Positions 7,256 to 33,639 of a DNA stretch of 64,000 bases are shown piece by piece (positions within the stretch are counted from its first letter, which is position 1; every line of letters begins with the position of its first letter). A program made the position numbers and the translations under genes. The stretch covers positions 1,736,001 to 1,800,000 of the forward strand of contig NZ_AHCB03000005.1 in the NCBI RefSeq assembly GCF_000238335.3, in the 5' to 3' direction. The notes under the pieces were generated by a model, which was not told the DNA's origin, made no database searches, and saw only the letters and a list, made by a program, of their open reading frames with translations. The stretch is from Pseudoalteromonas marina (GTDB taxonomy: Bacteria > Pseudomonadota > Gammaproteobacteria > Enterobacterales > Alteromonadaceae).

Positions 7256-7267
7256 AATAACCGTTAA

Positions 7268-9466: not shown

Positions 9467-9488
9467 TTATTACTGCCCTAACAATTGC

Positions 9489-12693: not shown

Positions 12694-12812
12694 TAAATAT
12701 AACCCTAAACACCTAGTTAATTAGCATTAAAATAGCTTACCCTTTTAACCTGTTAAATTAACTAATAAAACCAAGCAAATAATATTATTTCATTAAAAAT
12801 AAATTAACATTC

Positions 12813-13772
12813 TTATTTATCATAAAAATGACTAAGTACATCTATAAATAGCTTAACATCTTCTTTTGCTAACTTATTGATCCCTGCAGCAGCTTTTCGC
12901 CCGCCGCCAGTAGCAAATTTACAACAAACTTCATCGGCGCCAGTTCTATTATTAAGAGGTGCACGTACACTAACCAAATAACTACCATCTTCGTTTAAAG
13001 TTAAAACGGCATGTGCTTTGGTTGGATTTTTGTTAGCAAGCTCATTGCCGTAAACACCACTGATTCGCCTAGCCCATGGCATACAAGGTAAGATATATAC
13101 TTCACAAATATCATTACAAATATATGGTGAAATGGCAGTAATATTTGCATAATCTGCTTGGTACGCAGATTGTAACTTATAAAAAACCGAGTTTTTGTTT
13201 AGCTGTAAACTAAAAGGATCGCTTATATCACGCAACAAACAAAATAAAGCAGCTGGATCAATATGCAAATCATCAAGTGACGCACCATAGCCATTATAAT
13301 TAATTAATGTACCGAGTTCGTTTAAAAACGATTTTTGCTGATCATTTAAGTTATATTTATCTGAAAGCTTATTGGCCGTAGCTATCAAGTTATCACCATA
13401 AGCAGCCGCAATAGCCCAATTTATATATGTGTTGCCAAGCATTTCACTAATTAACAAACTAGTACATACCTCAGAAGATGTATCAACTAACGTTTTTAAA
13501 TAATCAGATTTTGGTACATCACCTGCCCTATGGTGATCGCAGTAAAATACAGTAATGCTCTTATTTAAAATATTTGTTAAGGCCTGAGTATTTTTTTCCA
13601 TTGAAATATCAAGTGCGTTAACATGAGTCGCATCGTCTAAATCAACGAGTTTCAATAAACTATTATCGCGCTTAACGCCTGTTATTAGTTTACTTTTTAC
13701 TGGGTTACTTAAACGCAATTGAACCAAAGCAATAATGCCATCGGCATCGCCATTAAATACATCGTAAATCAT
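12813..13772 (-). CDS. DHH/DHHA1 phosphoesterase, candidate pAp phosphatase
   Basis: 319 residues, the usual size of NrnA-like DHH phosphoesterases. Visible metal-site motifs are NGDADG (7-12), LDIS with D55, and D79-H80-H81; the DHHA1 substrate-binding glycines are GGGRKAAAG (289-297). Characterised NrnA proteins hydrolyse nano-RNA and 3'-phosphoadenosine-5'-phosphate (pAp). This gene lies 15 bases after APS kinase and in the same locus as a PAPS-using sulfotransferase, which releases pAp. I therefore infer a pAp-clearing role in place of CysQ, which is not seen in the window. Other DHH activities (oligoribonuclease, pyrophosphatase) remain possible. Confidence 0.75.
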   Translation of the reverse strand: MIYDVFNGDADGIIALVQLRLSNPVKSKLITGVKRDNSLLKLVDLDDATHVNALDISMEKNTQALTNILNKSITVFYCDHHRAGDVPKSDYLKTLVDTSSEVCTSLLISEMLGNTYINWAIAAAYGDNLIATANKLSDKYNLNDQQKSFLNELGTLINYNGYGASLDDLHIDPAALFCLLRDISDPFSLQLNKNSVFYKLQSAYQADYANITAISPYICNDICEVYILPCMPWARRISGVYGNELANKNPTKAHAVLTLNEDGSYLVSVRAPLNNRTGADEVCCKFATGGGRKAAAGINKLAKEDVKLFIDVLSHFYDK

Positions 13773-13787
13773 TCAATAAATCCTATA

Positions 13788-14432
13788 TTAATATTGCTGA
13801 AAATATCCGTTTTGCTTTAAGTAATTTACAATCTGTAACGCACAATCATGAACAGAGCATTCAGCCGTTTTAATGACTATATCTGCATTTTGCGGAGCTT
13901 CATAGGCAGAATCTACGCCCGTAAAGTTTTTTATTTCACCTGTTTTAACTTTTGCATATAACCCCTTAGGATCACGCTGCGCACATACATCAAGTGGCGT
14001 ATCTATAAAAACCTCTATAAATTCTCCCTGTTTGAGCTTTTTAGCAATCATTTCTCTGTCAGATTTAAACGGAGAAATGAAAGCAGAGCAAACCAATAAA
14101 CCTGCATCAACAAAAAGCTTTGCTACCTCACCAATTCTTCTTATATTTTCTACTCTATCAACATCAGTAAACGTTAAATCACCATTTAAGCCATGGCGAA
14201 TATTATCACCATCAAGCACGTAGGTTTTGCAACCACTGTCATGCAACATTTTATCAACAGCATTAGCAATTGTTGATTTACCAGAGCCACTTAAACCAGT
14301 AAACCAAAGTACGGCAGGCCTATGCTTGTTACTTTTAACTCTATCATCATGGCTAACGGTAGCTTGGTGCCAAACAACATCTGACGATTTTTCAGTCTCA
14401 GAATCTACCGTTTTATATGGACTTTGTGTCAT
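13788..14432 (-). CDS. cysC: Adenylyl-sulfate (APS) kinase
   Basis: A 214-residue P-loop kinase with GLSGSGKS at 46-53, [12 protein letters not shown] for APS binding, FISPFKSDR containing the family's reactive serine, and [17 protein letters not shown]. It converts APS plus ATP to PAPS, the sulfate donor for sulfotransferases and for reductive assimilation. In many bacteria cysC sits next to cysND. Here it is separated from them by about 16 kb of exopolysaccharide genes and sits with a sulfate-type permease and a DHH phosphoesterase. That context suggests PAPS made for polymer sulfation. Confidence 0.95.
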
Positions 14433-14470
14433 CTAACGTCTCTTATTTATAATTAAATTATTAAACACTA

Positions 14471-16204
14471 TTAAAACCCGTACACACTGGGTATTACATA
14501 AATAGCAGTAGTGCAGTAAACGAGTGAAACAGGCAATCCAAATTTAAAATAGTCTTTTATTTTGTATTGCCCAGCCGAATACACCATTAAATTTGTTTGG
14601 TAACCAAATGGCGATAAAAAGCTAGCGCTTGCTCCAAATGCAACCGCCATAATAAAAGGCATGGGATCGGCATTAAAATGGTTAGCCAAAGTTAGGCCAA
14701 TAGGAAATACTAGAGCAGCAGCTGCATTATTGGTAATTAGCTCTGTTAATATTACTGTGGTAATAAACAGCAAAACAAATGCACCAAAAGCATCATACCC
14801 ACTACTTACACTCAGTATTATTTGGCTAATATAATCAGCTAAACCAGAACTTTGCATTGCATACGCAACTGTTATTGCGCTTCCAACAATAATGACAATT
14901 TCAAAGGGTAAACGACGCCTAATTTCTGCAATTGATAGTGCGCCAACCGCTAAATAAAACCCCAATAAAACTAATAAAGACTTTAGTAAGCTTATTGCAC
15001 CAACAGCAGCCATTCCTAAAGAAAATATAAATCCGGCAATCACTAATTTGGAAAAACTAGATGAAAATTGTCCATTACCCAATTCATCATTTAAAACAAT
15101 AAAATTCTTTTTTAAGTTGTTTCTATTTTTAAAGTCTTTACCTACGGCCAATAACAACGCATCACCCGGTTTTAACTTTACTTTACCAAGCCCACCCGTT
15201 ACTTTTTGCCCCCCCCTTCTTACGCCAATAACCGTAGCATTAAATAAAGATCTAAAATTACTTTGCTTAATAGTTTTGCCGCTAATGCGAGCGTCAGCCG
15301 TAATAACAACCTGAACAAGGTTGTTATTTATACTTGCAAGGTCATCATTTAATACTTTTAAACCATCGAATTTATTGAGTGTTGTTAAGTCTTTTACATC
15401 GCCAGCAAACATTAACTTATCGTTTGCTTGAATTTGAAAGTTTGGGTCAACGGGGCTTATTAACTTATCGTTTCGTATAACTTCCGCCAAAAACAACGCG
15501 TCTAGGTTTCTAAAGCCATTTTCTAAAACCGTTTTATTAATCAAAGAAGAGTTTAATCCAACTTTGGCCTCTATAAAGTACTCGTTATTCTCCAAATTAT
15601 CAGGCTTGTTTGTAGGTAATAAAAAATATGCAGCGGGTACCATTACAGCTAACGATGCAACAAGCACAATTACTGCAACTGGTGTCGTAGAGAACATACT
15701 GAGTGTATTTAACCCAGCACTTTCAACAAAACCTGCCACTATTAAGTTTGTAGACGTCCCTACCAAAGTAAGCGTGCCACCAGCAATACAAGCATACGAC
15801 AAAGGAAGTAATAAATGGCTAGGTACCAAATCTTTATTTTGGTTAATACTAGCCATAACAGTAGATACAACTGCCGTATTATTAGTAAACCCAGATGCAA
15901 AACTGCAGCTAATACATAACTTAATTAAATTTACTAATTTATTTTTGCCAAAAAACTGTTGACCAAAGCTTTTTATATATGTGGTTTTTTCAATGGCGAA
16001 ACTGCACATTATCAAAAGTAATAAAGTAACCAGCGCACTATTAACAAACCCATTAAAAAAAACGTCTTGTGAAACTGTGCCCGTTAAAAATAACATTGCA
16101 CTAGTAAGCGCAAACACAAGCATTGGTCTAATTTTAAATATAATTAAGCCTGCGAGTAACGCAGCTAAAACAAAGCCAACCCATAAAGGGCTATTAAAAA
16201 ACAC
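14471..16204 (-). CDS. SLC13-family permease with two RCK-C domains, probable sulfate transporter
   Basis: About 577 residues. Two blocks of membrane helices flank a pair of cytoplasmic RCK_C (TrkA-C) domains near residues 205-375, the layout of SLC13/DASS-like bacterial sulfate permeases such as those related to SAC1/SLT. The C-terminal block contains TNNAAAALVFPIG, and the N-terminal block the related TNNTAVVSTVMA. I choose the GTG at 16204 because AAGGA lies seven bases before it; an in-frame TTG at 16228 has no ribosome site. The cysC gene follows 38 bases downstream, so sulfate is the likely substrate, though this is inferred from context. Confidence 0.8.
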   Translation of the reverse strand: MFFNSPLWVGFVLAALLAGLIIFKIRPMLVFALTSAMLFLTGTVSQDVFFNGFVNSALVTLLLLIMCSFAIEKTTYIKSFGQQFFGKNKLVNLIKLCISCSFASGFTNNTAVVSTVMASINQNKDLVPSHLLLPLSYACIAGGTLTLVGTSTNLIVAGFVESAGLNTLSMFSTTPVAVIVLVASLAVMVPAAYFLLPTNKPDNLENNEYFIEAKVGLNSSLINKTVLENGFRNLDALFLAEVIRNDKLISPVDPNFQIQANDKLMFAGDVKDLTTLNKFDGLKVLNDDLASINNNLVQVVITADARISGKTIKQSNFRSLFNATVIGVRRGGQKVTGGLGKVKLKPGDALLLAVGKDFKNRNNLKKNFIVLNDELGNGQFSSSFSKLVIAGFIFSLGMAAVGAISLLKSLLVLLGFYLAVGALSIAEIRRRLPFEIVIIVGSAITVAYAMQSSGLADYISQIILSVSSGYDAFGAFVLLFITTVILTELITNNAAAALVFPIGLTLANHFNADPMPFIMAVAFGASASFLSPFGYQTNLMVYSAGQYKIKDYFKFGLPVSLVYCTTAIYVIPSVYGF

Positions 16205-16408
16205 AAATGTATCCTTACAAATAATCAATCAAAGTGAGCTTTATGCTATTTTTCTAAATATATTAAGAGTTTTAAACAAAAGACTTATTAATCCAAAGTT
16301 TACTTTGTTCAAATCTGTGTCAGCCTTCGTACCCACTAGCTTAATCAATAAAATAGGCAGACCTAATGTTATCAGTGTTTTAAAAAAGATATTAGTGCAA
16401 GTGATAAC

Positions 16409-16437
16409 ATTATATAACCTGCATCATTAGCACTATA
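16409..16437 (-). promoter_or_regulatory. Possible promoter for the permease-cysC-DHH genes
   Basis: A perfect TATAAT on the minus strand (16414-16409) lies in the ~300-base gap upstream of the permease gene, but the -35 region 17 bases away (TATAGT) is poor. The gap otherwise holds no gene. The call is weak. Confidence 0.25.
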
Positions 16438-16508
16438 AAGCACACTAAGGCAAACGTTACTAAAAAACTTCTAGTGTTTTCAAAACATGTTACTTTCACA
16501 TCAAAAAA

Positions 16509-17930
16509 TTAGTGCTCTTCAATTCTTTTTAAAGTATTTGAAACAAGATTATCAGCCTTTGCTACTGTCGATGCTTCCGCATAGCATCTTAGCTCTGGTG
16601 CATTTCCTGAAGGACGTAAATGAACAATCGTCTCATCTGCAAAAGATATTCTCAAGCCATCGGTCTCGTCCACATCTGTTACATCAGTTTCACAGCCTAA
16701 ACTAACAAGCCATTGATTAGGGTACTGCACGATATTGCTAATTAGATCTAAACTTTTATGAATTGCATAGTCTTTAATGCGGTCACTTGAAGTAAACCTA
16801 CTAGGTAAACTATCAACCATTTGGCTAATGCTGGTTACGTTTAACTGACTGAGTAATACGATCACAGGCAATATTGCATCGCGTGTAGGTAATGGTTTTA
16901 TTATCTTACCATTTAATATAACTTCACTTGCTAGCAAATAGCCACCATTAGCTTCAAAACCAGCAACGGCACTATACTTTTTACATAATTCCTCAAGTCC
17001 CGCAATGACATATGGCGAACCAATTTTTGTACGCTCAACATGCTTAAATAGAGCTGACTTTTCGATTGCTGTGTTACAGCTCACAGGTGTTGCTAAGGCT
17101 TCTATTTTTAGAACTTTCGAACATAATAAACCCAAAATATCACCGCGAAGCCATTCTCCATTTTCATCAGATAATAAAGGCCTGTCACCATCGCCATCTG
17201 TTGAGAATAATGCATCTAGTTTGTATTCTTTAACCCAATCCTTCGCTTTTTGTTTGTCTGCATCAGATACTGCCTCAGTATCAATGGGCACAAAGTTATC
17301 ACTTCGCCCTAGTGTAACAACTTCCGCGCCAAGGCTTTCAAATATTTCACCATAAAGATCACGACCTGCACTTGAGTGTTCATATATACCAATGCGTTTT
17401 CCAGACAACGTTTTTTTATCAAATGCTTCTATATTCCTAGTGATATAAACTTGCTTTGCATCTAATAGAGTTTTTAACTCTGGTAAAAGCTCTAAGGATA
17501 TGGGTAAAACAGGTGCTTTTATCTCTAAAATAGCAGTTTCATCTGCTTTTGTAATTTCGCCTTCGGAACGGTAAAATTTAAGGCCGTTGCGATCAAATGG
17601 AATATGACTACCTGTAACCATAATGCATGGCATTCCTTGTTGCATCGCATGAAAGGCTAGTGCTGGTGTTGGAATAACACCATAAAACTTAGTTTCAATA
17701 TCGAGCTGCTTTAGTCCTACACTAATCGCTTGAGCCATCCTATAACTGCTAGGGCGGTTATCAATTGCAACAGCAATTGTCTTTAAATCCTGTCCTTTTT
17801 TTAAAACAGAGGCAAACGCAATCGCAAAAGCTGCACATACCTCTATAGTAAAATCACTAACGAGTCCCCTAGCACCGCTAGTACCAAAAGCCACACCTGA
17901 ATCATCAATAATATTATGTGAAAATGCCAT
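16509..17930 (-). CDS. manB: Phosphomannomutase (phosphohexomutase family)
   Basis: 473 residues with the four-domain alpha-D-phosphohexomutase pattern: phosphoserine loop MVTGSHIP with S108, Mg loop STDGDGDRP (near 240-248), sugar-binding region GFEANGGYL, and phosphate-binding RPSGNAPELR near the C-terminus. It interconverts mannose-6-phosphate and mannose-1-phosphate for the GDP-mannose branch. Note SHIP rather than the commoner SHNP in the loop. It lies one base from manC, which uses its product, so the two are tightly coupled. Phosphoglucomutase activity cannot be excluded from sequence. Confidence 0.88.
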   Translation of the reverse strand: MAFSHNIIDDSGVAFGTSGARGLVSDFTIEVCAAFAIAFASVLKKGQDLKTIAVAIDNRPSSYRMAQAISVGLKQLDIETKFYGVIPTPALAFHAMQQGMPCIMVTGSHIPFDRNGLKFYRSEGEITKADETAILEIKAPVLPISLELLPELKTLLDAKQVYITRNIEAFDKKTLSGKRIGIYEHSSAGRDLYGEIFESLGAEVVTLGRSDNFVPIDTEAVSDADKQKAKDWVKEYKLDALFSTDGDGDRPLLSDENGEWLRGDILGLLCSKVLKIEALATPVSCNTAIEKSALFKHVERTKIGSPYVIAGLEELCKKYSAVAGFEANGGYLLASEVILNGKIIKPLPTRDAILPVIVLLSQLNVTSISQMVDSLPSRFTSSDRIKDYAIHKSLDLISNIVQYPNQWLVSLGCETDVTDVDETDGLRISFADETIVHLRPSGNAPELRCYAEASTVAKADNLVSNTLKRIEEH

Positions 17931-17931
17931 T

Positions 17932-19347
17932 TTATTTGCCTTCTATTCGCCCATAGCGATCTTCAAAACGAACAATGTCGTCTTCACCTAGGTAAGAACC
18001 CGACTGAACCTCTATTAGCTCTAGATCTACTTTGCCTGGGTTTTCGAGTGCATGCACAGCCGTTATAGGAATATAAACCGATTCGTTCTCGGTTAAGTAT
18101 TGCTCTTGCCCGTCTAAATGTACTTTGGCAGTACCCGAAACCACAATCCAATGTTCAGCACGGTGGTGGTGCATTTGTACCGACAATTTAGCACCTGGTT
18201 TAACCGTAATACGCTTAACCTGAAAACGCTCACCACAATCAACCGAGTCGTATTTACCCCATGGGCGGTATACTTCACGATGAAATGTAACTTCACCGCG
18301 CTGCTCATTTTTAAGCTGCTGCACAATGGCTTTTACTTTTTGCGACTCGTTTTTATGGGCAACTAATACCGCATCTTTCGTGTTAACAATAACAAGGTTT
18401 TCAACACCTACGGTGGCAACCAGTTTGTCTTCACCAAATACTAAGGTGTTTTTCGTATCAACCGCTTTTACATCGCCTTTAAAGGCATTACCGTTTTCGT
18501 CTTGTTGAGATACTTCCCATAATGCTTCAAAACCACCTACGTCGTTCCAACCAGCATCCATAGGTACTACAACGGCATCTTTTGTGTGCTCCATTACCGC
18601 GTAATCAATAGACTCGTCGGGGCACTGCTCAAATGCTGCTTTTTCTACCCGAACAAAATCTAAGTCATCGTTTTGTACTTGCATTGCGGCTTCACACGCG
18701 CTGTAAATATCGGGCCTGAATGCTTTTAACTCTTGTAAGTAACGGCTTGCTTTAAACAAAAACATGCCACTATTCCAATAATAATCGCCACTTTCAATGT
18801 AAGTATTTGCGGTAGCTAAATCGGGCTTTTCAACAAAACGGTCAACCACAAAACCTGCTTGGTATTGCTCGCCACGTTTAATATAGCCGTAGCCGGTTTC
18901 GGGCTTGTTGCCCACAATACCAAAAGTAACTAATTTGCCCTGCTCTGCAAGCATGGCTGCTTGGTTTACACTTTGCTGAAATGCAGTTGTATTTTCAATA
19001 ACATGGTCGGCAGCAAGTACAAGTAACAATGGATCTTGCTTGTTTTCAATGGCTTTAAACGCGGCTAACGCAATAGCAGGTGCGGTATTACGCCCTACTG
19101 GCTCTAAAAATATACCCGAATGCTCAACATTTAATTGCCTAACTTGCTCTGCAGCTATAAAGCGGTGCTCTTCATTACAAATAAGCATAGCCGGCGAATG
19201 CTCAATACCACTTAAGCGGTTAATGGTTTGCTGCAGCATAGTATGGTTAGAGCCACCAAGTGCTAAAAACTGTTTTGGGTAATTACCGCGCGAAAGCGGC
19301 CACAAGCGCGTGCCAGAACCACCGGCCATAATGACGGGTAAAATCAT
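17932..19347 (-). CDS. manC: Mannose-1-phosphate guanylyltransferase / mannose-6-phosphate isomerase
   Basis: About 471 residues, a typical bifunctional type II PMI-GMP. The nucleotidyltransferase domain begins [17 protein letters not shown] and has FVEKPD; the C-terminal cupin domain has [17 protein letters not shown], carrying the isomerase metal site. It makes GDP-mannose from mannose-1-phosphate and GTP and can also feed mannose-6-phosphate from fructose-6-phosphate. I place the start at ATG 19347, six bases after AAAGGA; a longer in-frame ATG at 19374 would overlap gmm and has no ribosome site. The product is the substrate for Gmd. Confidence 0.93.
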
Positions 19348-19363
19348 AATCATTCCTTTATTT

Positions 19364-19846
19364 TTAAAGCTCAACGCTTATATTGTTACTTAAAGATTCA
19401 AAATACCATTTAGTATGCTTGTGTACTGCGGTGTCGTTAAGTAAATCGTTAATTTCAAACCATTTATAACCGTTATGCTGTACATCCATTGGTAGGTTAC
19501 TAAGTGGTTGTGTCAATTTTATAACAAACGAAATAGCCACATAATGCGTACTAAACTCTTCACCAAATACATTATCGTTATAAAAGTGATCGTACGGGCC
19601 TTGCAGTGTTGCTTGTTCAATAGCAAACTCGGTGCCTAGCTCGTCATGCGTTAAGCGTTTAAATGCACTCGCTAAGCTTTCGTTTTTTAAAATTCGTCCG
19701 CCGGGTACAAACCAAAACCCTTTGGCGGGGCGGTTTAATCGTTGCCCTAATAAGGCTTGGCCATTTTGGTTTATCACCACCAAATCAATAGAAACAAGTG
19801 GGCTACTTTTTATAACGGTACTAAATGTTTGTTGATCTAAAAACAC
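19364..19846 (-). CDS. gmm: GDP-mannose mannosyl hydrolase (Nudix family)
   Basis: 160 residues with the altered Nudix box of the Gmm family: [10 protein letters not shown], then [10 protein letters not shown], lacking the usual second catalytic Glu pattern of ordinary Nudix enzymes. It also has the Gmm hallmarks [20 protein letters not shown] and GPYDHFY. The enzyme cleaves GDP-mannose (and GDP-glucose) to GDP and sugar, and occurs in colanic-acid-type clusters between fcl and manC, exactly as here. It may balance GDP-mannose against GDP-fucose. Confidence 0.92.
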
Positions 19847-19855
19847 GTAACAACC

Positions 19856-20815
19856 TTATTTTCTAAAGTTGTTTTGGTTTGCTAAAAACCAATCGTAGGT
19901 GCTAGCTAAACCTTGCTTAAGGTCAATACTGTATTGCCAGCCTAGGTCTTTTAAGCGCGAAACGTCCATTAACTTTCGTGGTGCGCCATCGGGCTTGGTT
20001 GCATCAAACTCAATAGTGCCGTTAAAGCCAACTACTTGAGCTACGGTTTCAACTAATTCACGTATAGTGCAATCTACCCCTGTACCCACGTTTATATGGC
20101 TTAGCATCTCTTGTGTATTGGCTTGGTAGGTTTCGTTATTTAGGTTCATAACGTAAATAGACGCTGCGGCCATGTCGTCTACATGTAAAAATTCTCGCAT
20201 AGGCTTACCCGAGCCCCAAGCAACCACTTTGCTGTCGCCGTTAAGCTTTGCTTCGTGAAAACGGCGTAACAATGCAGGTATTACGTGCGAATTTTCAGGG
20301 TGAAAATTATCGTTTTCACCATATAAATTAGTTGGCATTACCGAGCGGTAATTACGGCCATATTGGCGGTTGTACGATTCGCACATTTTAATACCGGCAA
20401 TTTTAGCAATAGCATAAGGCTCGTTAGTTGGCTCTAACGTACCTGTTAGTAAAGCCTGTTCGGTCATAGGTTGTGTGGCAAGTTTTGGGTAAATGCACGA
20501 CGAACCTAAAAACAATAAATCGTTAACGCCGGCTAAATGTGCGCTGTGTATTATATTGTTTTGTATAGTTAGATTTTGGTAAATAAATTCGGCTGGGTAG
20601 GTATTGTTAGCAACAATACCGCCTACTTTAGCCGCCGCTAAATATACTTGGTCAATTTTATTGGTTTCAAAAAAATGTTTAACCGCTGTTTGATCAAGTA
20701 AATTTAATTCGCTACGGTCTTGAGTAATTACATTTATGTTGGGGTTTAGCGATAACTGGCGAACAATAGCCGAGCCCACCATGCCTTTATGGCCCGCTAC
20801 AAAAACAGTTTTCAT
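19856..20815 (-). CDS. fcl: GDP-L-fucose synthase (epimerase/reductase)
   Basis: About 319 residues of the extended SDR family: NADP-binding [11 protein letters not shown] at the N-terminus, active-site Tyr-Lys in NEPYAIAK, and SSCIYP carrying the catalytic Ser. It converts GDP-4-keto-6-deoxy-mannose, the Gmd product, into GDP-L-fucose. I use ATG 20815 because it fits the family N-terminus ([11 protein letters not shown]); an upstream in-frame TTG at 20845 would only add ten unconserved residues. It lies ten bases from gmm and 53 bases from gmd. Confidence 0.95.
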
Positions 20816-20868
20816 AATATATCCATGTAAAGTAGCTGCACACAAGGTGCAGCATTGGTACCTAAATG

Positions 20869-21990: not shown

Positions 21991-22025
21991 GTCATTTCCT
22001 TTTAAATTTTCTAAGCTGTTAAATG

Positions 22026-24898: not shown

Positions 24899-24960
24899 TT
24901 AAAATAGCCTCTATTAAGTTCCAACTCTAAAAACCATACCCCTAAACATGAAGCCACTAG

Positions 24961-26193
24961 CTAGGTACTAAACTTAGATCTGATAATCTGGTTGTATTGT
25001 TGCTGAGTATATATCTCAGACCTTAGATAAGCCTCTTTTGAATGGTGAGACAAGAGTTCACGATCATTACAATATTTTTCTATACATTCTTCGATTGCAT
25101 CTACTGACATCTTTTGTATAACAAAACCAGATTTGTTATTTTCTATTATTTGAGCGCAAGCAGCTGAAGATATCACTGGCGTACCTCGTGATATGGCCTC
25201 AACCTGAACCATTCCAAAACCATCTGACAAGGTAGGAAAAAGTAATACATCGACAGAATCTATTAATGTAGGGATATCATTGGAAGCTACAGTTCCAATG
25301 TACTTATGCCCGGAAAACTCTTGTAACTTAGACTTCTCAACTAATAATTCACCAGCCAAAACTAGTTCAACTTTAAAACCTTGTTTAACTAACCTATCGA
25401 CAGCAGCAACAGCATAATGCACACCTTTTCTTATTGATACATTACCAAGGCATAATAACCTTAAAGGTCTATCAGTATTAATATTAATACGCTGCTGTCT
25501 GCTGATAGAGGAAGCAATGGGTAGAACAGTGATTTTTTTATCAACGCCCCAATATTCTATAGACTTTTTTGAATATTCAGAGTTAACTATAATTTCATCA
25601 GCTATCTCTAATTCGCTTTTAACTCGCTCCTGAAACCCTTTATTCCAATGACCAGAACTTGAATTAGCCCCCCAATCTGAATATTTAGCAGTCTCTTCTT
25701 GAATAAGCTCCCACTCCGCTAATCCTGGATCAACTTGATCAAGAATAACAGTTCCACCAGTATCTTTACTTGCTCTCATACTTTCTAGAGCTCCTCCCGT
25801 GAAAGCAATCAAATTTTCCCCATGCTTAATTTGAGAACCAACAGTCTTCGCATATTTCCCACCATAATAAATCAATAACTGCTGTTTTTCGGCTAATGTT
25901 TTTGCTTTTCTAGTTTTTGCTCTAAAATCTAATCCGAGTATAAATTGCTGCCGAACTTTAGACCAAGGTAGGTCTTTATGATTACGGCACAATAGTGCTT
26001 TAATTGCAGGCGACCCATTAAACATTGGGGTAGCTTTGGTCGCCCAATAAGGCATGTAGATATCTGTATATAAGTAATTTAATTTACCCGCAACATTTAG
26101 AGCTAAAGGTAGGCTGTATCGTTCCCTAGAGCCCATACAAGATACTGTAAACTTATTGTTTTTCATTTTAGTTAATAAATCAGACATAACCAT
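24961..26193 (-). CDS. Glycosyltransferase, GT4-like
   Basis: 410 residues of GT-B type. The donor domain contains LLCLGNVSIRKGVHYAV and the late FPTLSDGFGMVQVEAISRGTPVI, an EX7E-like motif in which the first acidic residue is Asp. The start overlaps the sulfotransferase stop region by 14 bases. An internal ATG two codons in (26187) is equally plausible. It probably builds the repeat unit together with the neighbouring GT4 genes; no sugar specificity can be read from sequence. Confidence 0.8.
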   Translation of the reverse strand: MVMSDLLTKMKNNKFTVSCMGSRERYSLPLALNVAGKLNYLYTDIYMPYWATKATPMFNGSPAIKALLCRNHKDLPWSKVRQQFILGLDFRAKTRKAKTLAEKQQLLIYYGGKYAKTVGSQIKHGENLIAFTGGALESMRASKDTGGTVILDQVDPGLAEWELIQEETAKYSDWGANSSSGHWNKGFQERVKSELEIADEIIVNSEYSKKSIEYWGVDKKITVLPIASSISRQQRININTDRPLRLLCLGNVSIRKGVHYAVAAVDRLVKQGFKVELVLAGELLVEKSKLQEFSGHKYIGTVASNDIPTLIDSVDVLLFPTLSDGFGMVQVEAISRGTPVISSAACAQIIENNKSGFVIQKMSVDAIEECIEKYCNDRELLSHHSKEAYLRSEIYTQQQYNQIIRSKFST

Positions 26194-26956
26194 ACCTTGC
26201 AGCTTGTTCTAAAAATACTTTGCTAATTTTGGCTGACGAAATAATAGCATCACGGTATTCCTCCAAACCTTTATTTTCACCGGCCCCCCGCACAAAATTA
26301 AATTTATTATTATTATGCCTATCACCATCAGTATTAAGAGTTTTCTTCATTTGATCTCGTGAGGAAAGCTCCAAGGCTTTTGTAATTATCGAATCATCAA
26401 TAGAATAGCCTAACTGCCTATATACTTTTGAAATTTCGATTAAGGGAGAAGCTTGTAGATCTTCGTACCTAACAATAATAGCCCCTTTATCTTCCCAGCT
26501 TTTCATAAAGTTTCCCCAAGCATTAAAACCATAACGCCAATCAAACATAAATTCATCGATGTTTGATACTTTTTTGCCTCGCGCTTTTTCAAGGTAGTTA
26601 TGATAACTTGATATTACAAAAAAAGGATTCCTGACAACTACTACACTTTTAACCCCCTTAAAAAAAGGTGTGTATGGGAAATGTGTTTTTAAAAAGACAG
26701 GACAAGCCTCAATAATTTTGATTTCGGAAAGGCTCCTGTTACCTCTGATAACTGGAGAGTAATTCTCTATAGTACGAAAGTTAATTTTTTCACCACCTTC
26801 AATCAACGAGTTAACATTGGAAACAACAAATCGAAACCAGCTATTTCCTGATTTAGGAAAAGAAGCCAGTAAAACACTTGAAGAGGGAAACTGTTTTGGT
26901 GCTTCAAATATTGCTCTAGAATAACGCTCCAATTGATAAAATAAACTTTGGTACAT
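26180..26956 (-). CDS. PAPS-dependent carbohydrate sulfotransferase
   Basis: 258 residues of the P-loop sulfotransferase family. The 5'-phosphosulfate loop is SFPKSGNSWF (32-41, K35). The KTH stretch at 90-92 places the likely catalytic His at H92. The 3'-phosphate-binding motif is VVVRNPFFVISSYHNY (R109, S117), followed by VRYEDL. A C-terminal FVRGAGENKG stretch recalls the RKGxxGDWK motif that touches the nucleotide. It would move sulfate from PAPS to a sugar hydroxyl at the cytoplasmic face before flipping. It sits between the polymerase and glycosyltransferase genes, in a locus that also encodes the whole PAPS route, so a polysaccharide acceptor is strongly suggested. Confidence 0.88.
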   Translation of the reverse strand: MYQSLFYQLERYSRAIFEAPKQFPSSSVLLASFPKSGNSWFRFVVSNVNSLIEGGEKINFRTIENYSPVIRGNRSLSEIKIIEACPVFLKTHFPYTPFFKGVKSVVVVRNPFFVISSYHNYLEKARGKKVSNIDEFMFDWRYGFNAWGNFMKSWEDKGAIIVRYEDLQASPLIEISKVYRQLGYSIDDSIITKALELSSRDQMKKTLNTDGDRHNNNKFNFVRGAGENKGLEEYRDAIISSAKISKVFLEQAARYGYV

Positions 26957-26977
26957 TCAAATTTCCTATGTCTGTTC

Positions 26978-28237
26978 TTATTTAAATTTAATATTTATGC
27001 GTTGCATACGCAAAAGTAGAATATATGGATAAACTATAAATATTAGCCCTTTAAAAATTTGAGCCATTGAGCCTCTGGAGTAGTAGTAATATCCCATATA
27101 AACTGAGATCAAACCTACCCCTATGAGTAATTGTCTAGCATTAAGAGAGTACTTACTGACTAGTTTAAATAGCCAAATTGTTAAAAAAACATATATTATG
27201 CTGCCAATATACACAGCGTACCAACCGAACATAGTAAAATACTCACCAAAGAATGGTACTGTAGTACCTGACCTTAAAGATTCTTCGCTCATTGAAATGC
27301 CGTATGCTATATCTTTAAGGTGACTATACAAGTTCTTATCTGGATAAATAAATCGTGGAATAAATTGTTCGAAAACTTCAATCAATGGCTTAAAATGCAC
27401 AAATGGTAAATCATTACCATACTGCGACAAAGTTGAAGCTAATCCGAATACACTATTCGCATCTGCAAATAAACCATAGAGCAGAGTTTCAAGATCAATA
27501 TACTTTATTGCATCAAGATCTAACCCTGAAAACTTACTCCTCACAACGGTCATAACTGAAAAGAAAATTCCGACAATAACCAATGTAAAAAAAAGGCCAA
27601 TTTTTTGTTTTTTACTAGAATCTTCATTAAAATAGAACGCCAATAAAAGAGGCCCTACAATCAATGCAATTTTGTACCTCAAGCCAGTAAATACTGAATA
27701 TAATAAGAAAATTATAAGTGCAATTTTCCAAATATTCTTTCGGGCTCTTTCTGTCCCAAATGAAAATAAAATAACAGCAATTAGCACATCAGAAAATTGA
27801 TAAAAAATCAGCAAAAATGGGTCAATTGTAATTAAACTTGAATCACTTAAAGCACTTGCCTTTAAATAAACATATAATGAAGAAAATAGTCCAATAAAAA
27901 AAAGAAAATTTATAGTTCTATTAGTCCAATCGCTTTCGATATATTTGATATTAAAATTGGAAATTGGCTGAAGTGTACGATCTTTATATATTGTAACTGC
28001 TGCAACAACGAAAAACACAGTAAGATAAATAGAAGGTAATAAATATATTTCACTTGCCCAATTCGAACCTATAAACCAACCTCCTTTAAATTCAATCCAA
28101 TACCATGTGCCTAATAAACCATAATATAATGTAGATACAGTAAAAACTGTTAAGAACATCTTAGTCATCGTAGACTTTAATAATGATATTGTGCAAAGGT
28201 ATAAAATCACCAAAATTACTATCAATAGTATAAACAT
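26978..28237 (-). CDS. Wzy-like oligosaccharide repeat-unit polymerase
   Basis: A 419-residue integral membrane protein with roughly ten to twelve helices and a large periplasmic loop near residues 270-325, the typical O-antigen/EPS polymerase layout. The sequence is otherwise poorly conserved, as usual for Wzy. Position between the acyltransferase and sulfotransferase genes, with the flippase nearby, supports the call. The enzyme would join repeat units on undecaprenyl diphosphate in the periplasm. The gene lies in the most AT-rich part of the locus. Confidence 0.75.
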   Translation of the reverse strand: MFILLIVILVILYLCTISLLKSTMTKMFLTVFTVSTLYYGLLGTWYWIEFKGGWFIGSNWASEIYLLPSIYLTVFFVVAAVTIYKDRTLQPISNFNIKYIESDWTNRTINFLFFIGLFSSLYVYLKASALSDSSLITIDPFLLIFYQFSDVLIAVILFSFGTERARKNIWKIALIIFLLYSVFTGLRYKIALIVGPLLLAFYFNEDSSKKQKIGLFFTLVIVGIFFSVMTVVRSKFSGLDLDAIKYIDLETLLYGLFADANSVFGLASTLSQYGNDLPFVHFKPLIEVFEQFIPRFIYPDKNLYSHLKDIAYGISMSEESLRSGTTVPFFGEYFTMFGWYAVYIGSIIYVFLTIWLFKLVSKYSLNARQLLIGVGLISVYMGYYYYSRGSMAQIFKGLIFIVYPYILLLRMQRINIKFK

Positions 28238-28240
28238 TTA

Positions 28241-28831
28241 TTAAAGCTTCCCAATCCAAGCTTCAAAAGGAGCACATTGGTTTACGGGCTTATATAATAA
28301 ACTTTTAGTACGTTTACCAACCTCTACTGCAGGATTACCAGCAACAATAGTATAAGGAGGGACATTACGGGATACTACTGCTCCAGCCCCAACAACTGCC
28401 CCTTCTCCTATTGTCACCCCCGGTAATATAATTGAATTAGTTGCAATCCATGCGTAGTCACAAACTACAATTGGTTTTGATGTTAAAGGCCACATTGGAT
28501 CCCGCAAACTATGGGTACCAGTTAGTAAATGCGCACCACTATTAATCACTACACAATTGCCAATTAGTATTTCATCATGTAGTGCTAGGTGAACAGCTGT
28601 TGATATGGAGCTGAAAGCTCCTATAGTTAGTAGTTTGCCTTTCCCTTTTATGTCAATTTTTCCTACAAACGCAGAACTTTCAACTTTAGCACCTAGCAAG
28701 TTGAGGATTATTTTCCTAAAAATAATAATAGAGGTTGCCGGAAAATGAATACAGCGTTTAATCCATACAACAAACCATCTCCGACAAAATAATCGCGGTC
28801 GTTCGCGGTGCGAAAATAAATATAGCAACAT
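28241..28831 (-). CDS. Second hexapeptide-repeat acyltransferase (WcaF/maltose-acetyltransferase-like)
   Basis: 196 residues with left-handed beta-helix repeats ([40 protein letters not shown]) and the LTGTHSL active-site region. The C-terminus [12 protein letters not shown] is typical of the sugar O-acetyltransferase group. It is the second such enzyme in the locus, so the polymer probably has two acetylated (or otherwise acylated) positions, or this one modifies a precursor. The gene lies between polymerase and flippase with gaps of only 1-3 bases. Confidence 0.83.
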
Positions 28832-28832
28832 A

Positions 28833-30185
28833 TCAGTATTTCAACCTTAAATTAAAAACATCCATTACATATCTTTGTAATGAGGATTGAATGACTTTAT
28901 TTGCTTCAACAACTGAGAAAAACAAAATAAAAGACTCAGCTAAAACTATTGCAATTGCAGCTGCTTCTAGCCCTGCAATTGGAAATAACAACCAAGCAAA
29001 AATCACAGAACAAAACGAAGTAAATAGAAATATAATAGAAAAACGATTGTGATTATTCGTCGCCATTAAAACTAGCCAACTAGATTGACTATTAATATTC
29101 AGTAATGCAGCCCCTAAAAGTAGATAAAATAAGTGAACTGAATAAACAAAATCATCACCCAACCAAAGACTAAAAAGAAAATCATCTACTAATATTAAGG
29201 CAAAAACGCAAATAAAACCTATATATAGAGCATAACGCGATGCACCAATGTAAAGTTTTTTCATTAGTTTATAATCAAGTAAAGCAAACGCTTTTGTGAT
29301 TTCAGGCCAAATTGCTTGATTGACCATTGTAACCATTTGCACGATGATTCGAGATAATGTTCTAAGTACATTGAACTGTGCCACTGCCACGGCACCCAAG
29401 ACACTGCCGATTACCAAAGTCATTCCTTGTATACTTAAAGCTAATCCTAACGGGAAAGACATAAATGCAAGCCCTGGTTTTATCATCTCTTTAATAATTC
29501 CAAAATTTGCATCTTTTATAGAAAGACTGAAACTTTTAGAAGTATTAATTAGACGCATATACATAACCAAGTATCCGACTATACGCCCAAATAAACCCGC
29601 AATAGCAAAGGATAATATTCCCCCACCGATTATTAATGCACCAATTGCAAATAACCATTCGGTTAAACGAGTTGTATGAGAAAGAAATGTACCTTCAGCA
29701 TATTTATCTAAACTCCGATACGCTGCACATAACACATTGACTTGCATACCAAACAAAACTTGAATTGTCAGCACTAGAACAATATGGGTAACTTCAAGTC
29801 TATCTATCGTACTAATACCTATATTGTCACTGATGTTCATAATGCCAAATAGAAACAATACAAATATAAAAATTAAGCTAGACATAACCAAATTGAATGC
29901 GATAAGGCTGTGGAACGTAGATATTACATCCTTGTTATCATTTTGAGCATTTTTCGTAACCATACGATTACTAGCAATAGCCCCTATACCAAAATCACTC
30001 ATAGCTAAATAGGTTGGAAGTGCACTTAAAATTAACCATTCGCCAAAACTAACCATCCCCCAATAATGAATGAACAAGGGAACACTCACAAGTTGAGTTA
30101 ATACAGTTATGGCTTGCCCATATGCATTTGCGCTAACCCCTTTGATTAGGCGTGTATAAAGACCTTTATTTGTTTTTTTTATCAC
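28833..30185 (-). CDS. Wzx-like polysaccharide flippase
   Basis: A 450-residue, 12-14-helix inner-membrane protein of the MOP/polysaccharide-transport superfamily, starting after a short basic segment with [28 protein letters not shown], a standard Wzx N-terminus. It would turn lipid-linked repeat units from the cytoplasmic to the periplasmic face for the Wzy polymerase. This confirms a Wzx/Wzy-type rather than ABC-type pathway. The gene is followed by the acyltransferase with one base between. Confidence 0.9.
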
Positions 30186-30242
30186 TTTTTGCCTAAGTTA
30201 TTTTTATTTGTTGTCAATGAAAAGAAAAAGTTGTTATTAAAC

Positions 30243-31676
30243 TTATTTTATTTTGATACAAGCCCACTCAGGAAAACACTTCCTAATATAAGCATTTAAC
30301 TCAATTTCAGATTGAGTATAAGTTCTATTTTTAAGCTTTAAGCTATCAGCTGTTACCTCAAAGCTTTCACTTTCAGGTATAGTCTTCGATATCATCCCCG
30401 CACCCACCGTTACGTTAGTAAGCCTATCGATTACAATAAATGACCCTGTGCCATGCACTGTGTTGTATTCGTCAATTACTACTGGGCTTGATGTGCTTAT
30501 ATTGCACGAACCAATTTCGTTAAGTTGCAGCTCATTTACGTCTAAGTTTTTTAGGGTATTTACATCAATTTTATGGTTAATTTTTTCTATTCGGCCATAG
30601 GTGTTTTTTGTGCCTACTTTAAACTCATACTCTTTGCCTGGTTGTAATGCTGTTTCGTCCATCCAAACAAGTGTTGCTTCAAATTGCTCTGACGTGGTAG
30701 CTAAGTTATTTGATTTAACAATGACATCCCCACGCGAAATATCAATTTCATCAGTGGTTGTTAATGTAACTGCTTGCCCTGCAAATGCGCTTGTTAGGTC
30801 GCCGTCGGCAGTTACTATGCTTTTTACTGTTGATGACTTACCTGAGGGCATAACGGTAATTAAGTCGCCAACATTAATAACGCCACTGGCTACTGTGCCA
30901 CAGAAGCCTCTAAAGTTTAGGTTAGGGCGCGTTACAAATTGAACAGGAAAGCGAAAGTCTTGCAGGTTTTTGTCTTCGTTAACTGTTACTGAGTTTAGTA
31001 ACTCCATTAGGGTTGCGCCTGGGTACCAACTCATTGACTCAGATTTATTAACTACATTATCACCACGCAATGCTGATATTGGTACAAAGCGGATATCTGG
31101 TATGTTTAGGTCGGCAGCAAATGCTTTATAATCGTCTTTAATTTTACGATATTGCTCTTGGCTAAAGTCAATTAAATCCATTTTATTAACTGCAACAATA
31201 ACGTGTTTTAAGCCAAGTAAAGAAGCAATATATGAATGGCGTTTAGTTTGCGTTTGCACGCCGTAACGTGCGTCTACCATTACAATAGCTAGGTCGCAAT
31301 TTGAAGCGCCTGTTGCCATGTTACGGGTGTACTGCTCGTGCCCAGGGCAGTCGGCAATAATAAATTTACGGCTTTCGGTTGCAAAATAACGATACGCTAC
31401 ATCAATAGTAATACCTTGTTCACGCTCTGACTGAAGGCCGTCGACCAGTAGCGCTAGATCAAACTCACCATCGGTTGTGTTAAACTTTTTAGAGTCGTTT
31501 TTAATAGCTGACATGTGATCTTCAAAAATTAATTTTGAATCGTGTAATAGCCGGCCTATTAATGTTGATTTGCCGTCGTCTACATTGCCACACGTTAAAA
31601 AGCGAAGCATGTCTTTATCTTCATGCTTTTGAAGGTAGGTTTCTATATCTGTTTCTAGTAGTGTTTGTTCGTTCAC
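30243..31676 (-). CDS. cysN: Sulfate adenylyltransferase subunit 1 (GTPase)
   Basis: 477 residues with an EF-Tu-like GTPase: G1 GNVDDGKST, G3 DCPGHEQYTRN, G4 NKMD, followed by two beta-barrel domains. There is no C-terminal APS kinase fusion, consistent with a separate cysC in the locus. With CysD it forms ATP sulfurylase, making APS from sulfate and ATP with energy from GTP hydrolysis. It lies 50 bases after cysD and 57 bases before wzx, so sulfate activation and polymer assembly appear co-transcribed. Confidence 0.96.
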   Translation of the reverse strand: MNEQTLLETDIETYLQKHEDKDMLRFLTCGNVDDGKSTLIGRLLHDSKLIFEDHMSAIKNDSKKFNTTDGEFDLALLVDGLQSEREQGITIDVAYRYFATESRKFIIADCPGHEQYTRNMATGASNCDLAIVMVDARYGVQTQTKRHSYIASLLGLKHVIVAVNKMDLIDFSQEQYRKIKDDYKAFAADLNIPDIRFVPISALRGDNVVNKSESMSWYPGATLMELLNSVTVNEDKNLQDFRFPVQFVTRPNLNFRGFCGTVASGVINVGDLITVMPSGKSSTVKSIVTADGDLTSAFAGQAVTLTTTDEIDISRGDVIVKSNNLATTSEQFEATLVWMDETALQPGKEYEFKVGTKNTYGRIEKINHKIDVNTLKNLDVNELQLNEIGSCNISTSSPVVIDEYNTVHGTGSFIVIDRLTNVTVGAGMISKTIPESESFEVTADSLKLKNRTYTQSEIELNAYIRKCFPEWACIKIK

Positions 31677-31726
31677 GGGTATTCCTTTAACAATATTCTT
31701 TAAAATTAATGATGCTTAAAATTGGC

Positions 31727-32641
31727 TTAAAAGTAGCCTTCCATTTTTTTCTTTTCCATTGAGCCTGATGAGTCGTGATCGATTACTCGTCCTTGGCGTT
31801 CAGATGTTTTAGTAAGCAACATTTCTTGAATAATTTCTGGTAAAGTAGTGGCTTCAGACTCTACCGCTCCTGTTAGTGGATAACACCCTAATGTACGAAA
31901 ACGTACTTTTTTCATCATTGGAACTTCGCCTTCTTTTAATGGTAAGCGTTCGTCGTCTACCATTATTAACGAGCCATCTCGTTCTACTACAGGGCGGGTA
32001 TCTGCTAAGTACAAAGGTACAATTTCAATGTTTTCTAGATATATGTATTGCCAAATATCAAGCTCAGTCCAGTTTGATAATGGGAAAACACGAATGCTTT
32101 CACCTTTATTAACTTTACCGTTATAAGTGTTCCAAAGTTCTGGGCGCTGACTTTTTGGATCCCAACGGTGGTTTTTATCGCGAAAAGAATACACTCGCTC
32201 TTTAGCACGTGATTTTTCTTCATCGCGGCGCGCACCACCAAATGCGGCGTCAAACTTATGCTTATTTAAGGCTTGTTTTAAGCCTTGTGTTTTCATTATG
32301 TCAGTGTATTTGGCACTACCATGATCAAACGGGTTTATATTTGCGGCAATGGCTTCTTCGTTTTTGTGAACTATTAGGTCCATGTCGTATTTTTTAGCCA
32401 TACGGTCACGAAACGCAATCATTTCTTTAAACTTAAAAGTGGTATCTACATGCATTAATGGAAAAGGAGGCTTAGCTGGATAAAAAGCCTTCATGCATAA
32501 GTGCAGCATTACTGCTGAGTCTTTACCCACCGAATACATCATCACTGGGTTATCAAATTCTGCTGCCACTTCTCTCATTATATGAATCGACTCAGCTTCT
32601 AATTGCTTTAAATGAGTCATTCTTGCTTGTGATATTTCCAT
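31727..32641 (-). CDS. cysD: Sulfate adenylyltransferase subunit 2
   Basis: 304 residues of the ATP-pyrophosphatase/PAPS-reductase-like fold, with the PP-loop [29 protein letters not shown] and the C-terminal basic tail ending [10 protein letters not shown], all standard for CysD. It carries the ATP sulfurylase active site. The adjacent genes are galU upstream and cysN downstream. No reductive-pathway genes (cysH, cysIJ) are present in the window, so this copy is tied to the exopolysaccharide locus rather than to a cysteine operon. Confidence 0.96.
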
Positions 32642-32751
32642 TTTATCTCTCGTTATGCTTTAACGTATTTGAGCAAGCGTTATACAAATTATAACCTGCT
32701 GTAATTTCTAGCTATATTAATCTGCTTATGCTTAGAGTTTAAATTCTTTTA

Positions 32752-33639
32752 CTAAAGCAGTTTTTTTAATTGCTTTGTAAACTCTTCACCCATATGGCTT
32801 GATTGCATTGCATATTCAACATTAGCCAGCATATAGCCTAATTTAGAACCACAGTCATGCGATTTACCTGTTAGGTGGTAAGCTTCAAGCGTTTCGAGGT
32901 GGCGTAATTGTAGTAATGCATCGGTAAGTTGTATTTCGCCGCCAGCGCCAGGTGGCGTGTACTCAAGCAAATCCCAAATAGTGGGCGATACAACATAACG
33001 GCCTGTTATGGCTAGGTTGCTTGGGGCTTCATCGTTATTTGGTTTTTCGACCATGTTTTTAATGGTGGCGTTTTCGCCTGCGTTTATGTTTTTACCTGCT
33101 AGGTCTACCACGCCGTATTGGTGAACTTGTTCTTGAGGTACAGGCTCTACCATTACTTGGTTATGGCCTGTTTGGTCAAACCGGTTAATCATTTGGCTTA
33201 AGTTATCGGTTTTTGGGTTTGACTTGTATTTGTCAATTATTACGTCGGGTAGCATTACGGCAAAAGGGTTGTTGCCAACTATGGGTTTAGCCGCAAGTAC
33301 TGCATGGCCAAGGCCTAATGGAGCCGATTGGCGAACCGAAATTACCGTTACGTCTTTTGGTACTATTGAGCGAATCTCGTCTAGTAGGCTGCGTTTTACG
33401 CGTGCCTCTAGCGTGGCTTCTAGCTCAAAGCTGGTGTCAAAATGGTTTTCGATAGAGTTTTTAGAAGCGTGAGTAACCAGTACTATTTCTTTTATGCCTG
33501 CGGCTACGGCTTCGTTAACTACATATTGAATTAAGGGTTTGTCTACCAGGGGGAGCATTTCTTTTGGTATGGCTTTTGTAGCTGGTAACATACGTGTACC
33601 AAGGCCTGCAACGGGGAGTACTGCTTTTAAAACTTTCAC
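32752..33639 (-). CDS. galU: UTP-glucose-1-phosphate uridylyltransferase
   Basis: 295 residues with the nucleotidyltransferase signature [25 protein letters not shown] near the middle, and DCGSKLGYM near the end, normal for GalU. It makes UDP-glucose, which the initiating transferase at 11211-12614 probably uses. The start is GTG at 33639 with AAGGA upstream. It is the first gene after the main promoter of the locus, and a terminator-like hairpin lies in its leader. The cysD gene follows after a 110-base gap with no visible terminator. Confidence 0.95.

Follow-up and report, generated by a model that had tools for sequence, protein, structure and literature searches.

A predicted sulfated exopolysaccharide or capsule locus with its own PAPS genes in Pseudoalteromonas marina

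Sulfated bacterial capsules whose loci carry their own genes for the supply of 3'-phosphoadenosine 5'-phosphosulfate (PAPS), together with sulfotransferase genes, are a class that is already known from published work. The sulfated capsules of Vibrio sp. KMM 8419 and Cobetia marina KMM 1449 have been chemically characterised (PMC11641403, PMC11766843). The Vibrio strain is described as having a second cysC, cysN and cysD in a polysaccharide locus with sulfotransferase genes, its sulfated product was demonstrated by nuclear magnetic resonance, and the gene combination is termed a hallmark of sulfated polysaccharide synthesis (PMC11641403). For the Cobetia strain, locus-borne cysN/cysC, cysD, a sulfate permease, a phosphatase for 3'-phosphoadenosine 5'-phosphate (pAp) and a sulfotransferase are reported (PMC11766843). 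The present work concerns a related locus in Pseudoalteromonas marina, which lies in a window of 64,000 nucleotides (the whole stretch of DNA that was analysed, positions 1,736,001 to 1,800,000 of contig NZ_AHCB03000005.1) from a genome of 4.19 Mb in 11 contigs that is rated 100% complete. An earlier, sequence-only reading of the window had considered a bacterial sulfated fucose polymer with its own PAPS supply unusual, a view that overstates the novelty in light of the two published strains.

The locus is an operon of 25 genes on the minus strand, running from 33639 down to 5827 with intergenic gaps that are short or overlapping (the two largest are 280 bp and 198 bp), and it encodes a Wzx/Wzy-type polysaccharide system. 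The reading favoured here, with a probability of roughly 80%, is that it serves the Wzx/Wzy-dependent synthesis of an exopolysaccharide or capsule, predicted to be sulfated, and brings its own PAPS cycle. The genes are listed in their order from the 5' end of the operon, with profile scores followed by cut-offs, and the last line gives the block that is exchanged in a sister genome (G038).

32752..33639, minus strand: GalU, UDP-glucose pyrophosphorylase (TIGR01099, 368 bits, cut-off 326.8)
31727..32641, minus strand: CysD, ATP sulfurylase small subunit, second copy (NF009214, 544 bits, cut-off 413)
30243..31676, minus strand: CysN, ATP sulfurylase GTPase subunit, second copy (NF003478, 709.9 bits, cut-off 590)
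28833..30185, minus strand: Wzx flippase (PF13440, 26.6 bits, cut-off 23; NF041503 under its own cut-off)
28241..28831, minus strand: hexapeptide O-acetyltransferase, WcaF-like (NF007797, 104.6 bits, under the cut-off of 192)
26978..28237, minus strand: Wzy-type polymerase candidate (7 hydrophobic segments in a crude scan)
26180..26956, minus strand: PAPS-dependent sulfotransferase, 258 aa (PF00685, Sulfotransfer_1, 63.5 bits, cut-off 22)
24961..26193, minus strand: GT4 glycosyltransferase (PF00534)
23789..24898, minus strand: GT4 glycosyltransferase (PF00534)
23239..23811, minus strand: WcaF-family O-acetyltransferase (NF007797, 285.9 bits, cut-off 192)
22026..23303, minus strand: WcaI-family glycosyltransferase (NF007640, 506.5 bits, cut-off 276)
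20869..21990, minus strand: Gmd, GDP-mannose 4,6-dehydratase (TIGR01472, 592.6 bits, cut-off 415)
19856..20845, minus strand: Fcl, GDP-L-fucose synthase (NF047922, 537.9 bits, cut-off 500)
19364..19846, minus strand: Gmm, GDP-mannose mannosyl hydrolase (NF011963, 184 bits, cut-off 146)
17932..19374, minus strand: ManC, mannose-1-phosphate guanylyltransferase/isomerase (PF00483, PF01050)
16509..17930, minus strand: phosphohexomutase, presumed ManB (PGM_PMM domains I-IV; weak subfamily match, no equivalog reached)
14471..16228, minus strand: SLC13/DASS-type anion permease, presumed sulfate uptake (Pfam; two TrkA_C stretches)
13788..14432, minus strand: CysC, APS kinase, second copy (TIGR00455, 264 bits, cut-off 138.7)
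12813..13772, minus strand: DHH/DHHA1 phosphoesterase, predicted pAp phosphatase in the place of cysQ (Pfam DHHA1/DHH under cut-offs)
11211..12614, minus strand: WcaJ, undecaprenyl-phosphate glucose-1-phosphate transferase (TIGR03023, 554 bits, cut-off 410.75)
5827..11227, minus strand: export block of BBP2_2 outer-membrane barrel, Wza, Wzc (Wzz/tyrosine kinase), CpsB/CapC phosphatase and VpsP-like protein (Pfam, NCBIfam)
16277..30390, no strand: replaceable repeat-unit block (blastn edges at 16276 and 30391 against G038)

The genes which the sequence-only reading had named are all confirmed at their positions on the minus strand by Pfam and NCBIfam profiles, and with them its claim of a locus that combines its own sulfate activation and a sulfotransferase with GDP-mannose and GDP-fucose supply. 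The initiating transferase and export genes that it had included do belong to the operon, but they lie outside the range of 12813-33639 that it gave (WcaJ at 11211, export genes at 5827-11227), and it mentioned neither the DHH gene (12813), the hexapeptide acetyltransferases (23239 and 28241) and GalU (32752), nor the modular swap described below. The markers of the Wzx/Wzy-dependent class, namely a polyprenyl-phosphate sugar transferase, Wzx and Wzc/Wza, are all found at the locus. The polymerase of the earlier claim is represented by a candidate (26978) which has no Pfam or NCBIfam match, has 15 homologues and has a 91% match in Pseudoalteromonas sp. 10-33; it is called a Wzy candidate because one of the homologues bears the name Wzy and because homologues pair with those of the sulfotransferase in 5 cases. 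The gene set goes beyond chance, being intact and co-oriented, with both flanks kept in the sister genome.

The sulfate-activation genes of the locus are second copies. A whole-genome search with PF01507 returns the locus CysD, a second CysD and a single CysH, the last two on another contig (C6), where a full housekeeping run cysG-cysD-cysN-SLC13-cysC-cysQ lies about 75-80 kb from cysH-cysI-cysJ. None of cysH, cysI, cysJ and cysG is linked to the locus, as the sequence-only reading had held for the reductive genes. A whole-genome search for CysQ (TIGR01331) gives three matches, all on C6, none at the locus and two over the cut-off. The locus and housekeeping copies are 81% identical for CysD, 56% for CysC, 54% for CysN and 46% for the permease. 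The full set on C6 thus rules out that the locus holds the only cysDNC copies of the genome, the circumstance which the earlier reading had named as fatal to its own proposal, and because this separate cysDNC set exists together with cysHIJ, the locus copies are not general assimilation genes. A tree built from 62 rows of CysN has a branch (support of 100 in the Shimodaira-Hasegawa-like approximate likelihood ratio test, SH-aLRT) that splits 49 cassette copies, from Pseudoalteromonas, Vibrionaceae, Colwelliaceae, Shewanellaceae and others, from 13 housekeeping copies, all from Pseudoalteromonas; the tree is a quick, midpoint-drawn one, and it sets the cassette copies apart from those of the genus itself without placing a global root. 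The 54% identity and the position on the other side of the tree rule out that the CysN of the locus arose by recent duplication of the housekeeping gene. Same-genus cassettes fall in at least three spots (the locus with G038 and G027; G037, G008, G081 and G031 with Shewanella; G025 with G024), a scatter which suggests repeated acquisition.

The comparison with G038 separates the operon into constant and exchanged parts. Its DNA matches 30391-33995 and 5568-16276 at 84-91% identity, and its outer neighbours match 33997-53655 at 87-94%; the 14-kb block at 16277-30390 has no blastn match in the corresponding G038 region at an E-value of 1e-10, and 8.7 kb of different DNA stands in its place. One edge of the swap lies within the final 150 bp of cysN, the other 48 bp upstream of the permease gene. 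Among the products of the G038 block are a Wzy_C-like protein (29.4 bits, cut-off 31.7), a GT4 enzyme and Wzx; one open reading frame (ORF) has a weak match to sulfotransferases and another has no family. The block also encodes KdsA-, KdsC-, KdsB- and KdsD-like proteins, which are read from DAHP_synth_1, HAD, CTP_transf_3 and SIS-CBS matches and therefore point to a repeat unit of the Kdo (3-deoxy-D-manno-octulosonic acid) type. Between these two genomes, then, the sulfation genes have stayed and the sugar genes have been exchanged. Shewanella hanedai likewise keeps the order slc13-cysC-DHH-wcaJ-BBP2-wza-wzc-cpsB, and this 3' half stands behind ManC, a phosphohexomutase-like gene, two GT4 genes and Wzx; no sulfotransferase was found in the 10 kb examined upstream, where a 268-aa ORF has no family, and a contig considered as the continuation (L149) was rejected for its length (230,734 and not 118,068).

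The sulfotransferase of the locus lies inside the exchanged block. Its family profile matches SULT structures best (E 2.4e-20), the bacterial Teg and StaL enzymes being weaker, and the motifs PKSGNSW, KTH and RNP..SY are present. Across 18 sequences, PKSGNSW (the loop for the 5'-phosphosulfate of PAPS), KTH (the segment with the SULT catalytic histidine) and the R...S of the 3'-phosphate site show little or no variation. The protein is rare, with 18 matches, itself included, among 5.8 billion proteins and, among 394 sampled genomes of the order, a match in its own alone; it was rejected as a marker for such loci because of this rarity. Among its 17 non-self homologues, 5 are paired with homologues of the polymerase candidate by equal longest-contig size (12055, 5938, 6904, 24390, 133178), so that the two genes appear to travel together in one repeat-unit block. 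An iterative hidden Markov model built from the locus protein recovered the protein itself and one marginal ORF (in the locus of G084, 15.4 bits), and Pfam models were used instead because it missed the two other sulfotransferases of the genome. These two matches lie at C11:381348-381947 and 424339-424920, in frames of 528 and 484 aa, and matches in frames of similar size occur in many same-genus genomes.

Sulfotransferase genes near other cassettes were then counted with PF00685 and PF13469. PF00685 is matched in 19 of 19 same-genus genomes searched, mostly in frames of about 500 aa, and genome-wide presence does not discriminate within the genus. On the contig of the cassette, at a distance of at most 25 kb, a match over the cut-off is found in 7 of the 14 genus cassette genomes (the present one, G014, G024, G025, G027, G058 and G060, with G024 searched by PF13469 only). 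At the named loci, a motif scan gave four candidates in DNA of at most 10 kb a side, three over the Pfam cut-off (L063, L068, L084) and one under it (L057). Genome-wide, PF00685 is matched in 20 of 30 named cassette genomes, in 2 of 3 that have just cysC and DHH, and in 4 of 16 which have a DHH locus without cysC, these 16 being classed by that locus alone and the genome of L112 being left out. In one genus genome (G024) a cysD-cysN-permease-cysC cassette without DHH is followed by a Polysacc_synt_2 gene, with a sulfotransferase 16 kb off (L146).

The protein at 12813 is predicted to be a pAp phosphatase that takes the place of CysQ, a member of the FIG superfamily whose profile is unmatched here. 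It has the DHH and DHHA1 fold, and NGDADG, D55, DHH79-81 and D127 are invariant over 15 aligned sequences. The predicted metal ligands D9, D11, D55, H80, H81 and D127 correspond to D8, D10, D57, H76, H77 and D127 of the Methanothermococcus PAP phosphatase (MtPAPP) by position, not by superposition; the motif-I histidine (H6 of MtPAPP) is not kept, Asn7 standing there in 15 of 15 sequences, and His6 is described as making a long-range interaction only (PMC10322725). The predicted model is fitted best by Z-score to the Methanothermococcus enzyme (8a8k, 25.5, tied with RecJ-Cdc45), the lengths being 319 and 316 residues. A sequence search of the PDB with 12813 gives no credible match, the top rows starting in tag-like stretches and RecJ reaching E 0.35. 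MtPAPP resembles 12813 in its DHH/DHHA1 fold, its size, the similar positions of its metal-binding aspartates and the closeness of its gene to those for ATP sulfurylase and APS kinase, as described for that enzyme; it differs in that the two share 12-15% identity in structural alignments, in the His6 that is Asn7 here, and in that it serves reductive assimilation in an archaeon (PMC10322725). A literature search, with most subscription journals outside its reach, found no paper that ties a DHH phosphoesterase to sulfated polysaccharides.

The linkage of the DHH gene with sulfate activation was followed in named genomes by a scan with a DHH alignment led by 12813. It covered 80 loci, the best 80 of at least 568 confirmed matches, with at most 10 kb examined on each side and at some loci much less. 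The gene cysC stands at 49 of the 80, a share that applies to near relatives of 12813; it shares the strand of the DHH gene in every case and lies no more than 500 bp away at 47. The genes cysD, cysN, the permease gene and cysC occur together at 37, and cysH, I, J and Q at none in the DNA examined. The 16 other same-genus loci, which exclude two genomes with DHH fragments only (G034, G055) and the present locus, have cysC within 500 bp at 12 and all four genes at 7. The DHH gene is matched in 19 of 99 Pseudoalteromonas genomes, those two with fragments included. It occurs in 12 of the 13 genus genomes with two CysC matches, compared with 7 of the 86 others (Fisher p 6.6e-10, which treats related genomes as independent and uses a CysC count that scored 34 of the candidates from a first pass per genome); one of the seven, G031, has the cassette though one CysC was found. 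In G031, which is rated 5% contaminated, a TAA interrupts the DHH match (C140:9270-10178), and no CysC was found other than that of the cassette. When genes with "cysC within 3 kb" are marked on a DHH tree of 97 rows, 8 changes of this label are needed, compared with 29 when the labels are shuffled; L072 was labelled as lacking cysC though a split cysC match is seen there.

The neighbours of DHH loci without cysC were identified by Pfam on one example per cluster. Some of them belong to polysaccharides, with epimerases or polymer genes nearby, and in two genomes of Vibrio each kind of DHH gene is represented once (L055/L078, L069/L094); the DHH family is therefore not confined to sulfation. 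At seven Vibrionaceae loci without cysC (L087, L091, L097, L100, L107, L124, L130) the DHH gene directly follows a gene of a single cluster (TetR family in the tested example), and at five of them a gene resembling that for lysyl-tRNA synthetase precedes the latter. Here the family would have either a second function or an ordinary housekeeping one. From the G038 comparison and the wider survey a broader proposal can be made, to which even odds are given: that cysD, cysN, the SLC13 permease, cysC and a DHH-fold predicted pAp phosphatase, not CysQ, form a portable PAPS-cycle module which has spread among marine and other gammaproteobacteria apart from sulfur assimilation, as a constant sulfation chassis with exchangeable repeat-unit genes between its halves. 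If this were true, a bacterium could change its sugar (a fucose type here, a Kdo type in the sister genome) and keep its charge.

The favoured reading implies a sequence of steps that is drawn largely from family membership. The permease would import sulfate, CysDN would make adenosine 5'-phosphosulfate (APS) and CysC would make PAPS, while WcaJ would place glucose on undecaprenyl phosphate. WcaI and the two GT4 enzymes would add further sugars, among them fucose from GDP-fucose, the WcaF-type enzymes may acetylate the repeat unit, and the lipid-linked repeat unit would receive its sulfuryl group from PAPS through the sulfotransferase. The DHH protein would hydrolyse the leftover pAp to AMP and so prevent inhibition of the sulfotransferase, pAp being described as an inhibitor of such enzymes (PMC8268124). 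Wzx would then flip the unit, Wzy polymerise it, and Wzc/Wza with the BBP2_2 barrel export the product. That Gmd and Fcl stand in one block with the WcaI and WcaF relatives makes fucose a likely constituent; that part of the sequence-only reading stands, whereas "sulfated fucose polymer" is too strong, since the product would not be a fucan. With WcaJ and three glycosyltransferases, the predicted repeat has about four sugars with glucose at its base, and we take fucose to follow the glucose by analogy with colanic acid, in a unit that would be O-acetylated and sulfated. Sulfation, on whichever sugar of the repeat, and pAp hydrolysis at the locus are predicted steps.

Several findings weigh against this reading or against the role it gives to the DHH protein. 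Seven of the 14 genus cassette genomes (among them G008, G031, G037, G076, G081 and G084) have no PF00685 or PF13469 match over the cut-off within 25 kb, some of their cassettes being near contig ends, and the swapped block of G038 has a sub-threshold sulfotransferase match only (19.7 bits, beside a run of N). Seven of the 30 named cassette genomes, all Vibrio (G490, G491, G492, G501, G502, G510 and G517, with loci L055, L056, L057, L069, L070, L098 and L126), have no match to either family anywhere; either their sulfotransferases come from other families or the cassette serves another use. In the DNA examined 31 of the 80 DHH loci lack cysC, and some of these, next to a TetR gene or a chemotaxis receptor, lie outside polysaccharide loci. 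These 31 loci and the seven Vibrio genomes also count against the module as a general rule. The Pfam scores of 12813 are under the curated cut-offs, Foldseek orders its structural matches by E-value with RecJ-Cdc45 first and 8a8k at rank 9, and because the genome has two CysQ matches over the cut-off, the DHH protein is not needed for bulk pAp removal. That 12813 is a nanoRNase or dinucleotide phosphodiesterase (NrnA, PggH or RecJ-like) whose adjacency to cysC has nothing to do with pAp is nevertheless unlikely, in view of the 47 close same-strand cysC neighbours, of its similarity in size to a dedicated PAP phosphatase, and of the fact that this phosphatase was itself found through the same kind of gene linkage (PMC10322725).

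The remaining alternatives concern what the sulfate genes serve. The motif match of the sulfotransferase names no acceptor, and SULT-type enzymes are promiscuous as a class, so the enzyme might act elsewhere, for instance on a lipid or small molecule; this is improbable given its pairing with polymerase-candidate homologues, which ties it to one repeat unit. The same pairing, and the presence inside the repeat-unit block of a sulfotransferase whose motifs for PAPS binding and catalysis are intact, make it very improbable that the polymer is a fucose- or mannose-containing exopolysaccharide whose PAPS genes serve PAPS-linked biofilm signalling and not sulfation. Such signalling would fit the seven Vibrio genomes without a match, the LapG/LapD-like pair that adjoins the operon and whose LapD-like member has GGDEF/EAL domains, and the report that in Vibrio vulnificus PAPS raises expression of exopolysaccharide and levels of cyclic di-GMP and BrpT activates brp and cysDNTC, an effect described, however, for the sulfate assimilation pathway of that species (PMC6113621). 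It is also scarcely credible that the cysDN and cysC copies are spare or replacement assimilation genes caught by recombination which do not serve the locus. The housekeeping cysDN-permease-C-Q run does contain the same kinds of genes, but it is complete on C6, the cassette CysN lineage stands apart from the genus's own, the named DHH loci combine frequent cysC with no cysH, I, J or Q, and both flanks were kept in G038 while the middle was exchanged.

Other features of the window lie outside the operon. Immediately downstream, a 282-bp intergenic unit stands in four tandem copies at 4568-5697, with similar elements at about 38819-39097, at 57471-57991 and in G038. Divergent from the operon and kept in G038, a LapG-like BTLCP protease and a LapD-like GGDEF/EAL receptor are encoded at 33949-36637, followed by a Wzy_C protein at 37434. 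An 18-bp unit is repeated about 16 times at 56779-57063 within an ORF of 1052 aa (54207-57365) near a pseudouridine synthase gene, an ORF which, judging by gene order, may encode RNase E. Promoter scans gave fewer sites than shuffled controls (40 vs 54.4; 45 vs 57.8), and terminator-like sites numbered 20 vs 19.8 in one stretch and 26 vs 15.3 (standard deviation 4.2) in the other; neither was used. Rfam gave no matches at gathering scores.

Sulfated bacterial polymers are sought as replacements for animal and algal ones, and the cost of PAPS has been named as an obstacle (PMC13125312, PMC4189415). The DHH gene provides a testable reading for many proteins labelled "acetyltransferase" or "DHH family phosphoesterase", and the signature of cysC beside DHH without cysHIJ could flag loci for sulfated glycans in which the sulfotransferase has diverged beyond recognition. 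With sugar genes swapped between constant sulfation flanks, it can be tested whether selection keeps sulfate while the sugar antigen changes.

Among known systems, the colanic acid locus (wca) is similar in uniting WcaJ, WcaI, WcaF, Gmm, Gmd and Fcl relatives in one run. The colanic-acid equivalogs remain under their cut-offs at the present locus (TIGR04007, 444.9 of 800.45, for WcaI; TIGR04008, 294.2 of 326.3, for WcaF), and colanic acid is not known to be sulfated. Rhizobia have dedicated sulfate activation and sulfotransferases near glycan synthesis genes (NodPQ/NodH). In the NodPQ/NodH/NoeE systems the acceptor is a lipo-chitooligosaccharide signal and not a polymer; NoeE is reported to sulfate a fucose enzymatically (PMC5080398). 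Synechan, made by the Xss cluster, is a bacterial sulfated exopolysaccharide with two sulfotransferase genes (xssA, xssE), for which the main text leaves cysC unmentioned and PAPS supply is described within general sulfur assimilation (PMC13125312). The closest counterparts are described with different export and sugars: the Vibrio capsule with ABC-transporter (Kps) export and a rhamnose/glucose repeat, in a paper whose main text has no word starting with "phosphatase" (PMC11641403), and the Cobetia capsule with Kps export, a rhamnose/mannose repeat and CysQ of the FIG fold (PMC11766843). The present locus differs from the published sulfated-capsule loci in its Wzx/Wzy export with a colanic-acid-like fucose module and GDP-fucose supply, in a DHH-fold protein where CysQ would stand, and in a constant sulfation cassette in two parts around an exchangeable block.

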